Shown: positions 1,077 through 38,309 of the stretch, piece by piece
How positions within the stretch are numbered: the first letter of the stretch is position 1
How the letters are laid out: each line of letters opens with the position of its first letter
NCBI GenBank assembly: GCA_947627235.1
Contig: CANQVG010000002.1
Span: 1-64,000, forward strand
DNA from: an uncultured Clostridia bacterium
GTDB taxonomy: Bacteria > Bacillota > Clostridia > Oscillospirales > Ruminococcaceae
Direction: 5' to 3'
DNA: 64,000 nt
The notes under the pieces: generated by a model
What the model saw: the letters and a program-made list of their open reading frames with translations, nothing else
Told to the model about the DNA's origin: nothing
The model's database searches: none
Position numbers and translations under genes: made by a program

Positions 1077-1440
1077 AACAGCGCCCACAATGCGGCGCCA
1101 AAGTTTGATATTAAGGTAATAAAACCCGACTCGAAAGCTTTCGGGCTTTACGCGTTCGGGACGGGGACAATTTAGAGGCGGGTTTTATGCTGAATAAAAT
1201 CCGCCTTGCCGATATTTGCGGACATAAAACCCGCACGAAGCAGGGTGGGTAAAGACGCCCCAAAAGTTTCTCGCTCCCTTCGTCCGACGCTGAGCGTCGG
1301 GAGGTCTGCAGTCCGCTTTCGGAGGACGAATCCCTTAATTTATGTGTTGGATTTAAAAAAACCGCAAATTGTCGCACAAGGCAGAAAAATGACTCATTTG
1401 TTACGCGCTTATTCTGTACGTTTTGAGAAAAAATATTCGT
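1077..1440. repeat. gene-free gap built of nested inverted repeats
   Basis: No credible gene lies between ruvX and the convergent DUF1292 gene. The element GCGGGTTTTATG at 1178-1189 is flanked by its reverse complement on both sides: a 10-base match at 1119-1128 and a perfect 12-base match at 1223-1234. The centre copy can therefore pair either way. A further perfect dyad, CCGACGCT / AGCGTCGG around one base, lies at 1284-1300. None has a run of T beside it, so they are not ordinary terminators. A degenerate miniature element or a structured 3' RNA are both possible. Confidence 0.5.
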
Positions 1441-18003: not shown

Positions 18004-18957
18004 GTGAGACAGTTGAAAAAAGTTCTCGTTGACGGGCATTACGGAACCGTCAATTTAAATCTCAACAAAATAATTGCCGGACGGGACGACCTTGAGGTCA
18101 TCACTCTTGAAAGCAAAAATAAAGTGACTCCTCAGCAGAGGGTATCGCTTTTAAATACCGCCGATATAGTTATACTTTGTCAATCCGCGCAGACCGTCGT
18201 CGAGACCATCCCGCTGATAACCAACCGCAGCGTAAAGGTTATTGACACGTCTAACGCCTACCGTCTTTCTCCGAGCTGGGTATACGGAATGCCTGAACTC
18301 AGTCCCGAGCAGCGCAGAAAAATCGCCGAGGCGAGGTTTGTGTCACTGCCCGCGCCTATGGCTGTCGGAACCGTCGCGCTTATAAATCCGCTTTTAAAGG
18401 GCAGAATAATGCCGCCATATCTTCCGCTTTATGTCAACTGTGTCGTCGGATATTCGAGCGGCGGCGCTAATATGATTGCTATGTATGAAGACCCCGGGCG
18501 TCCGCGCGCCTATTCTTCCGCGCGGCAGTACGGTCTCGATCAGGCGATGCTGCAGCAAAAAGAGATAATGCACGCCAGCGGACTTTCATACCGTCCGTCC
18601 CTCAACCCGATGATAGACGACTATCCCAACGGTATACTCGTCACTCTGCCTCTTCACCTCAGAACTCTTTCCAAAAGGCTTCATTCGCGGCAGATTTGGG
18701 ATGTAATCAAGCGCTTTTATGAGCGCGAACCGCTTATCGAGGTGGCTGACTTTGAAACCGCTTCGCAGGATCTTGGCGGATTCCTCGACGCCGGCGGAAT
18801 GGCTGGCTCCAACAAAATGCAGATTTTCGTCTTCGGCGACAACGACATCTGTCTCTTAGCCGCAAGGTTTGACAATCTCGGCAAGGGCGGAGCCGGCGCC
18901 GTGGTTCAGTGCTTAAACCTTATGCTTGGTCTCGACGAGCTCAAAGGAGTTATTTAG
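18004..18957 (+). CDS. ArgC-like (type 2) protein without the catalytic cysteine
   Basis: A 317-residue homologue of short-form N-acetyl-gamma-glutamyl-phosphate reductase. The N-terminal Rossmann part reads V-L-V-D-G-H-Y-G-T-V, and the core has V-V-G-Y-S-S-G-G-A-N-M-I-A-M-Y-E, the place of the usual G-Y-S-G-G-G-K. However, the active-site motif N-P-G-C-Y-P-T is replaced by L-P-A-P-M-A-V, so the nucleophilic cysteine is a proline. The K-H-x-P-E histidine segment also looks replaced (A-M-L-Q-Q-K-E). The reductase reaction is therefore unlikely. No arginine genes are nearby. The start is GTG 18004 or TTG 18013, both with weak ribosome sites. It may be a binding or regulatory protein of unknown role. 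Confidence 0.7.
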   Translation: MRQLKKVLVDGHYGTVNLNLNKIIAGRDDLEVITLESKNKVTPQQRVSLLNTADIVILCQSAQTVVETIPLITNRSVKVIDTSNAYRLSPSWVYGMPELSPEQRRKIAEARFVSLPAPMAVGTVALINPLLKGRIMPPYLPLYVNCVVGYSSGGANMIAMYEDPGRPRAYSSARQYGLDQAMLQQKEIMHASGLSYRPSLNPMIDDYPNGILVTLPLHLRTLSKRLHSRQIWDVIKRFYEREPLIEVADFETASQDLGGFLDAGGMAGSNKMQIFVFGDNDICLLAARFDNLGKGGAGAVVQCLNLMLGLDELKGVI

Positions 18958-18967
18958 AGACTGTGTC

Positions 18968-18995
18968 GGCGGGGGCGCACCCCGCCTTTTGTTTT
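18968..18995 (+). terminator. terminator of the ArgC-like gene
   Basis: Stem GGCGGGG / CCCCGCC, loop GCGCA region, followed by TTTTGTTTTG. Confidence 0.82.
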
Positions 18996-19005
18996 GTCAC
19001 CGTCG

Positions 19006-19148
19006 GGGTAAACCCGTACGCATAACCCAAATCCGCAAAAGGAGGTTCATAAAAATGCGTATTCGCAGATAAAAAAGGCTTACGGATGAGCAGTCATAGT
19101 AAGTCTTTACCCAAAAAACTTTAATTTTACACGGAGGACATATGACTG
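19006..19148 (+). promoter_or_regulatory. hflX leader with competing pairings
   Basis: Around the five-codon ORF there are several exact complements. GGGTAAA (19006-19012) matches TTTACCC (19106-19112). CTTAC (19079-19083) matches GTAAG (19099-19103) just after the leader stop. CAGTCATA (19091-19098), in that loop, matches TATGACTG (19141-19148), which includes the hflX start codon. A ribosome paused on the leader would cover the first arm of the small hairpin and could change access to the hflX start. This looks like translation attenuation. Confidence 0.5.
19055..19072 (+). CDS. five-codon leader peptide M-R-I-R-R upstream of hflX
   Basis: ATG CGT ATT CGC AGA TAA, preceded by AAAAGGAGG nine bases upstream, one of the best ribosome sites in the window. 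The peptide M-R-I-R-R contains the pattern R-x-R, i.e. the +x+ motif at which ribosomes carrying macrolide antibiotics stall. It sits 69 bases before hflX, whose product rescues stalled ribosomes and in some Firmicutes gives macrolide/lincosamide resistance. This supports a role as a sensor peptide. The ribosome site and codons are seen; the sensing role is inference. Confidence 0.6.
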   Translation: MRIRR

Positions 19149-20416
19149 ATAATTTTGAAAATCTTTTTAACCGCGCCCCGGAAGCCGAAAGGGTTCCCAA
19201 GGCGCTTACCGTCGCCATAGATACCGGCGACTACGATGTCGAACGCTCGCTTGCCGAGCTTAAGGAGCTTATAAGGACCGCCGGCGGCGAAACGGTCGCC
19301 GAGGTAGTGCAGAAGCGTCAGTCGCCGGACAGCGCCACCTGCATCGGTTCCGGCAGGCTTGAGGAGATGAAGACGCTTTGTGAGGAAATGGAGATAGACG
19401 TAGTAGTCTTCGACCTCGAGCTGACGGCGACCCAGATAAGAAACATAGAAAAGGTTCTCGACACGGAGACCATCGACCGCACTATGCTGATTCTTGATAT
19501 TTTCGCTCAGCGTGCTACTACCCGCGAGGGAAAGCTTCAGGTTGAGATTGCGAAGTATAAATACCTGCTTCCGAGGCTGTCGGGAATGGGAAAATCGCTT
19601 TCAAGGACGGGCGGAGCCGTTGGAATGAGGGGAGGTCCCGGCGAGACAAAGCTCGAACTCGACCGCCGCTATATTCGCTCGCGGATAGATACTCTCGAAG
19701 CCGAGCTGAAAAACATCGGAGCAAGGCGGGAGCTTATGAGAAAGCGCCGCAAAAAGGACGGCGTACTGACGGCAGCGATAGTAGGATATACAAACGTCGG
19801 CAAGTCCACACTTATGAACGCGCTAACGGAGGCGGGCGTTCTTGTCGAAAACAAGCTTTTCGCTACGCTTGAGACCACTTCGCGCTCTATCATTCTTCCT
19901 GACGGCAGAAGCGTTCTTCTGACCGACACCGTTGGGCTTATAAGCAGACTCCCTCATCATCTTATCGAGGCGTTCAAGTCCACGCTTGAGGAGGCAGCCG
20001 ACGCGGACGTAATCCTGCACGTCTGCGACAGCGCGAGTCCCGATATCGAGGAGCAGACGAGGGTAACGCGCGAGCTGCTTTCCGAACTCGGCTGCGACGG
20101 AATACCGGTGGTGACAGTGCTGAATAAAAGCGACATTTCGGATTATGACGGCGCAAATCTGCAAGACGGAACCGTGCTGATTTCTGCTAAGGACGGCACC
20201 GGTCTCGACCGGCTTCTTGAGGAGCTTGCAAAGGCTCTGCCCGAGACCGCGAGGCGTATGAAGCTCAGATTGCCGTTTTCCGAGGCGGGGCTGCTCGCAA
20301 AGATAAGAGCCGAGGGCGGAGTTTTCAGCGAGGAGTACACTTCCGACGGAATTGAAGTCGACGCGCTTGTAGACGTGAAGCTGATACATTCTGCCGAGAA
20401 ATACAAAACGGAATAA
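19142..20416 (+). CDS. hflX: ribosome-associated GTPase HflX
   Basis: A 424-residue HflX, a GTPase that splits stalled ribosomes. The N-terminal HflX domain has T-C-I-G-S-G-R-L-E-E-M and V-F-D-L-E-L-T-A-T-Q-I-R-N. A coiled middle contains the conserved G-M-R-G-G-P-G-E-T-K-L-E. The GTPase domain has G1 G-Y-T-N-V-G-K-S-T, G3 D-T-V-G-L-I-S-R-L-P, G4 N-K-S-D and G5 S-A-K-D-G. The start follows ACGGAGGAC. A leader peptide and alternative RNA pairings upstream suggest expression responds to translation inhibition. The length is typical, and a terminator follows. Function in ribosome rescue is from the family; antibiotic resistance is only possible. Confidence 0.95.
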   Translation: MTDNFENLFNRAPEAERVPKALTVAIDTGDYDVERSLAELKELIRTAGGETVAEVVQKRQSPDSATCIGSGRLEEMKTLCEEMEIDVVVFDLELTATQIRNIEKVLDTETIDRTMLILDIFAQRATTREGKLQVEIAKYKYLLPRLSGMGKSLSRTGGAVGMRGGPGETKLELDRRYIRSRIDTLEAELKNIGARRELMRKRRKKDGVLTAAIVGYTNVGKSTLMNALTEAGVLVENKLFATLETTSRSIILPDGRSVLLTDTVGLISRLPHHLIEAFKSTLEEAADADVILHVCDSASPDIEEQTRVTRELLSELGCDGIPVVTVLNKSDISDYDGANLQDGTVLISAKDGTGLDRLLEELAKALPETARRMKLRLPFSEAGLLAKIRAEGGVFSEEYTSDGIEVDALVDVKLIHSAEKYKTE

Positions 20417-38133: not shown

Positions 38134-38309
38134 GCGGAGTTGCCGCCGGATTCGGCGGCAGAGAGCAGGGGAAGCGCGGTGAAAACCCGCCGCAACAGTC
38201 ATTACGGTAAAAGTCCGATAGCCTGCCCGCCGGATACGCCGTTTTCTCGGGCAGAGGAGAATTTAAGCGGCGTCTTTTTGCCATGCCCGAGAATCGGGCA
38301 TTTTTTATT
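38134..38309 (+). promoter_or_regulatory. cobalamin riboswitch with terminator switch
   Basis: The aptamer shows a GGGAAG...CGGTGAAAA core at about 38167-38185, CCGC-CGCAACAGT at about 38187-38200, and the B12 box AGTCCGATAGCCTGCC at 38212-38227. The expression platform is a terminator ATGCCCGA / TCGGGCAT plus T run (38283-38309). Its left arm can instead pair with TCTCGGGCA at 38245-38253, the likely antiterminator. Cobalamin binding would therefore end transcription before the DUF4430/ECF genes. Confidence 0.88.

Follow-up and report, generated by a model that had tools for sequence, protein, structure and literature searches.

The gene hflX, which encodes a ribosome-splitting GTPase, lies downstream of argC in the window (the whole stretch of 64,000 nucleotides that was analysed), and the region between the two genes carries the leader described here (Table 1). 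The identity of hflX was established by a TIGR03156 score of 433 bits against a cutoff of 216.75, and a genome search returned one hflX only, the remaining matches being remote GTPases. An intrinsic terminator separates argC from hflX, which is therefore expected to be transcribed separately; no promoter match was found upstream of the short leader ORF (uORF). The sole plus-strand terminator that we found lies upstream of the uORF and none was found between the uORF and hflX, making it more likely that any control is translational. Rfam returned no credible match to the leader, only a sub-threshold snoRNA match on the opposite strand.

Table 1. Features of the hflX leader and its surroundings, with two further RNAs found in the window.
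Feature	Position	Strand	Remarks
argC	18004-18957		Upstream gene of hflX; TIGR01851
Intrinsic terminator of argC	18968-18995	+	Stem 18968-18986 plus T-rich tail
uORF Shine-Dalgarno, AGGAGG	19040-19045	+	Conserved in leader alignment
uORF MRIRR, ATGCGTATTCGCAGATAA	19055-19072	+	5 codons; from sequence and conservation
Region 0, uORF codons 4-5 plus stop	19064-19072	+	Can pair with region 1 in several relatives
Region 1, 5′ arm of helix A, AAAGGCTTAC	19074-19083	+	Core GGCTTAC 19077-19083
Region 2a, anti-start, CAGTCATA	19091-19098	+	Complement of hflX start region
Region 2b, 3′ arm of helix A, GTAAGTCTTT	19099-19108	+	GTCTTT 19103-19108 can pair instead with GAGGAC over the hflX SD (helix B)
hflX Shine-Dalgarno, GGAGG	19133-19137	+	Mostly within helix B
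Region 3, hflX start region, TATGACTG	19141-19148	+	Closed by anti-start in helix B
hflX, ribosome-splitting GTPase	19142-20416	+	Single copy; TIGR03156
6S RNA	1194-1390	-	Rfam RF00013, 56.1 bits
AdoCbl-II riboswitch	38153-38232	+	Rfam RF01689, 50.7 bits

The strong ribosome site and five-codon ORF of the preliminary description were both found, with nine bases between the Shine-Dalgarno (SD) sequence and the ATG and with the codons ATG, CGT, ATT, CGC and AGA followed by TAA. A degenerate pattern of this uORF occurred only once in the 1.65 Mb genome, with no second copy elsewhere, and other short frames beginning MRI or MSI had no comparable leader after them in the stretches inspected. HflX was found in all 31 genomes of the same genus that were searched, including that of the window, and the upstream region was read in every one. 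An HflX clade of 14 species (support 100/100) shares the arrangement: a short uORF with its own ribosome site, a hairpin beginning 0-5 nt past the uORF stop, and a segment complementary to the hflX start (the anti-start) occur in 13 of the 14 species. Loss of the ORF or of the pairing in close relatives, which had been named as an observation that would count against the proposal, was thus confined within the clade to L015, in which no part of the arrangement was seen. Start and stop codons of the uORF are conserved amid synonymous changes (CGT/CGC, TAA/TGA), and the encoded peptides are MRIRR (8 species), MRIRG (2), MSIRR, MIIRR and MTR.

Related leaders, whose peptides diverge more, occur in two species outside the clade (MRILG in L023 and MSIKD in L026), and most other members of the genus have a short argC-hflX gap and no such leader that we could see. 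A model of the whole leader sequence (R1), searched against 396 genomes of the family, gave strong matches (60-91 bits) in the same genus and before hflX only; the next match scored 21 bits, and these weaker matches looked unrelated among those read, except for one (L159) that proved to be a different hflX leader. No uORF conserved before hflX across the family was found, other short frames being scattered. In most species of the leaderless sister group (L027-L036) hflX follows close behind the argC stop codon, as if co-transcribed, and the intergenic region upstream of hflX is longer in the leader clade than in that group.

The exact complementarity to the hflX start region that had been reported was recovered in full: CAGTCATA matches TATGACTG, which contains the hflX start codon, at eight of eight bases. 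Among the 41 genes of the window that are preceded by an SD sequence, this is the longest exact complement to a gene's own start (the next were 7, 6 and 6), with a pairing energy of −10.8 kcal/mol, and 26 of the 41 have no such complement of 4 or more. Across the 13 leader-bearing species the duplex between leader and start had a mean of −10.8 kcal/mol, compared with −4.56 (sd 0.48) for shuffled leaders, so the proposed sequestration of the start codon agrees with a predicted pairing that is conserved and far stronger than in shuffled leaders. Matched to the hflX SD stretch by itself, region 2 was no more complementary than shuffled sequences were. The competition with other pairings that had been claimed was also borne out, in that the strand containing CAGTCATA also belongs to a 10-bp hairpin just past the uORF stop. 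According to the folding models, this hairpin (helix A) joins regions 1 and 2b and leaves the hflX start free, whereas in helix B the strand 19091-19108 pairs with 19134-19139 and with region 3, covering both the hflX SD and the start; prediction and covariation thus give this strand two mutually exclusive pairings. Their predicted energies lie no more than 1.5 kcal/mol apart in 9 of 13 species and less than 5 kcal/mol apart in all, a near-balance as expected of a switch.

Covariation was assessed on a 28-column block alignment in which core arms, anti-start and start were placed by hand, so the pairing count leans towards the proposed structure; in this alignment 98.2% of cells were paired, compared with 16-39% when the partners were slid. 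Five pairs were altered on both sides. The stem pairing AC/GU is replaced by CU/AG in L017, L018 and L020, and the hflX starts ATGATCG (L018) and ATGGCTG (L020) are matched by changes in the anti-start, GATCAT facing ATGATC and GGCCAT facing ATGGCT. The alignment has eight distinct rows only, and its 13 sequences come from one clade of related species and therefore contain few independent changes. Covariation in both helices would also suit an H-type pseudoknot, in which helix A and the anti-start:start pairing form together and block initiation until destabilised by a ribosome on the uORF; in most species the anti-start lies in the hairpin loop next to the 3′ arm, so that the two helices could stack. 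In L017, L018 and the outlying L023 and L026, however, the anti-start is partly or wholly inside the extended stem, so both helices cannot fully coexist there, and the predicted closed state pairs the 3′ arm with the hflX SD region too, which fits exclusive pairing. We regard the pseudoknot as rather improbable.

In E. coli, HflX is among the heat-shock proteins, and helix B might accordingly be read as an RNA thermometer that melts on heating, with the uORF incidental; the start accessibility predicted for the window's leader is 0.24 at 30°C and does rise to 0.67 at 47°C. A thermometer, however, would need neither the uORF with its SD nor the competing helix, all of which are conserved with compensatory changes, and the hosts appear, from isolate names, to be gut bacteria living at a steady temperature. 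This explanation is very improbable.

The effect of a ribosome on the uORF was modelled by folding. In nascent transcripts that lacked region 3, helix A had a median probability of 1.00 whether the uORF was free of ribosomes or had one at codon 1, of 0.99 with one at codon 3, and of 0.00 with one at the last sense codon; with the ribosome at codon 3 the nascent helix was weak in L016 (0.11) and L017 (0.32). In 10 of the 13 species the core hairpin starts 15-17 nt past the first base of codon 3. The edge of the ribosome footprint has been placed at +16 to +18 from a start codon in the P site (PMC12121999), so that region 1 begins roughly where a ribosome whose P site holds codon 3 would have its leading edge. 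For full-length leaders at equilibrium, helix B prevailed in most species, and did so even when codon 3 was occupied by a ribosome, so the ON state must be kinetic; a ribosome at codon 1 raised mean start accessibility from 0.12 to 0.26. Since a ribosome at codon 1, and usually one at codon 3, allows helix A to form and one at the stop codon abolishes it, early stalling would turn hflX on and completion of the uORF would turn it off, a direction that we infer from the folding models.

The reading that we favour, as having somewhat better than even chances, is therefore that the leader is a translational attenuator of hflX that is turned on by early stalling on the uORF. Helix A would fold first, during transcription. 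Ribosomes completing the uORF would cover region 1 at the stop codon and melt helix A, whereupon helix B would form and hflX would be off. If a ribosome instead stalled between the start codon and codon 3, whether under an antibiotic that acts on the peptidyl transferase or the exit tunnel or through some other early block to elongation, region 1 would remain outside the ribosome, helix A would persist and hflX would be translated, and the HflX so made would split stalled ribosomes. Early arrest of ribosomes on the uORF, by an antibiotic or by another stress, is thus the probable condition under which the uORF and hairpins turn hflX on. The switch could also have the opposite sign, a ribosome held on the uORF masking region 1, freeing region 2 and closing the start in helix B, so that stalling or heavy translation of the uORF would repress hflX, which would be open only when the uORF is not translated; masking region 1 in the models did pair the start in essentially all species (median unpaired 0.00). 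Such a switch would need a stall at the last sense codon or the stop, whereas codon-1 and codon-3 ribosomes usually leave the core hairpin outside their footprint and the known antibiotic stalls on uORFs of the MRI and MRLR types map to the start codon or to codon 3 (PMC10201436, PMC12121999, PMC8298421). It would also shut off a rescue factor just when it is needed, and we consider it unlikely.

We also considered a four-segment attenuator that includes pairing between regions 0 and 1. This pairing was modestly above shuffles (mean −5.90 vs −4.24, sd 0.55) and looked attractive in L010, L011, L013, L014, L017 and L018; cognate segments did no better than swapped ones and the pairing is absent in the window's own sequence, so on these models it would be at most an optional extra.

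The preliminary description had linked the uORF to macrolides through its R-x-R motif. The motif, taken as Arg/Lys-X-Arg/Lys, is present in the window and in 10 of the 13 clade leaders, but it is absent from MSIRR, MIIRR and MTR as well as from the outlying MRILG and MSIKD, so that a strict macrolide reading is supported only in part. Short MRLR peptides are reported to stall ribosomes with macrolides, the ErmDL stall has the Leu of R-L-R in the P site, and on ErmDL R-x-R is required for telithromycin and largely dispensable for erythromycin (PMC8298421). MRIR resembles ErmDL and MRLR arrest peptides in its R-x-R and would, like R-L-R, place Ile3 in the P site with Arg4 in the A site, although ErmDL controls an erm methyltransferase and R-x-R is not invariant in the Clostridia hflX leaders, the second residue varying in MSIRR and MIIRR. 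In clostridial cplR leaders the uORF follows the consensus MR[I/M], which is MRI in C. difficile, and pleuromutilin, lincosamide and streptogramin A drugs are believed to stall ribosomes on it with little dependence on context (PMC10201436); drugs of these types have been described as stalling at start codons (PMC12121999), a mode that would tolerate variation at codon 2. Because R-x-R occurs in only 10 of 13 leaders and MRI resembles the cplR uORF, lincosamide- and pleuromutilin-type drugs appear by analogy as plausible as macrolides. We thus infer that the inducer would be either a drug of the lincosamide, pleuromutilin or streptogramin A type acting at the start codon or a macrolide or ketolide acting at R-I-R, in which case the stall would have Ile3 in the P site.

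Three of the five codons specify arginine and argC lies upstream, which could instead point to a sensor of arginine starvation, in which scarce charged tRNA-Arg stalls ribosomes early at the Arg codons; a ribosome waiting with codon 2 or codon 4 in its A site would likewise be an early stall. However, clade relatives have Ser, Ile or Gly at codons 2 and 5, MTR has a single Arg codon, and hflX is not an arginine gene and is set apart from argC by the terminator. Starvation sensing is accordingly a poor prospect. More tentatively, and with rather less than even confidence, we propose a genus-restricted, purely translational antibiotic switch on the sole hflX, in which the stalled ribosome would halt short of the hairpin without melting it, early stalling being ON and ordinary completion of the five-codon ORF being OFF. 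Drugs of several classes, all of them blocking formation of the first peptide bonds, would then act as inducers.

The leader had been taken to be an undescribed attenuator, which holds in part. A leader ORF with R-L-R precedes hflXr of Listeria monocytogenes in rli80, which acts by transcription attenuation and is induced by lincomycin and erythromycin (PMC6310831). The Clostridia leader resembles rli80 in having a short R-x-R leader ORF before an hflX gene and alternative RNA structures, but rli80 has a 14-codon ORF and an intrinsic terminator and serves a resistance-type copy beside another hflX, whereas here a 5-codon ORF, no leader terminator and start-codon sequestration are found on a single hflX. 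A transcription attenuator of the Listeria type is less likely, as the intrinsic terminator that it requires between uORF and hflX was not found. In Bacillales, the published account of uORFC-6-1 proposes the same logic for an Arg-Leu-Arg uORF that lies upstream of hflX and has a covarying RNA structure after it (PMC8632094); that system differs in its host group and in its proposed effect on transcription. The C. difficile cplR leader is likewise clostridial, with a very short MRI uORF and alternative structures that hide an SD, and its translational attenuation has been shown by experiment, in addition to transcriptional attenuation (PMC10201436); it differs in controlling an ABC-F resistance factor and in also having an intrinsic terminator. 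We found no description of a translational, start-codon-sequestering hflX leader in Clostridia in the literature searched, which included few subscription journals. Leader ORFs with R-L-R for hflX are therefore already published or proposed, and what seems to be new is that in these Clostridia the control is translational, works by sequestering the start codon and acts on the sole hflX. If this is correct, antibiotic-sensing control of hflX, so far tied to Listeria and Bacillales and to a specialised resistance copy, would also operate in gut Clostridia and on the only hflX of the cell, suggesting ribosome splitting as a drug-inducible defence in these gut bacteria. The position of the hairpin just beyond the edge of a codon-3 ribosome gives clear predictions on where the stall should lie.

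Other hflX leaders were noted in the family. In genus g16, L062 (G045) and L159 (G232) have a different leader, with the uORFs MIFFTFMMAK and MIIFYKNN, respectively, and a CCAAAGG complementary to a CCTTTGG over the hflX SD; a third g16 genome (G161, L199) is without it. About 190 nt upstream of hflX, L049 and L053 have a promoter-like sequence and a 20-codon frame, VIIHHTYH(R/K)N(E/Q)PNIAAKVPD, with a terminator-like hairpin between the frame and hflX, a layout that marks a possible transcription attenuator. L063 also has a promoter-like sequence, followed by a terminator-like hairpin (GGTCTCC/GGAGACC-TTTTT) just before hflX.
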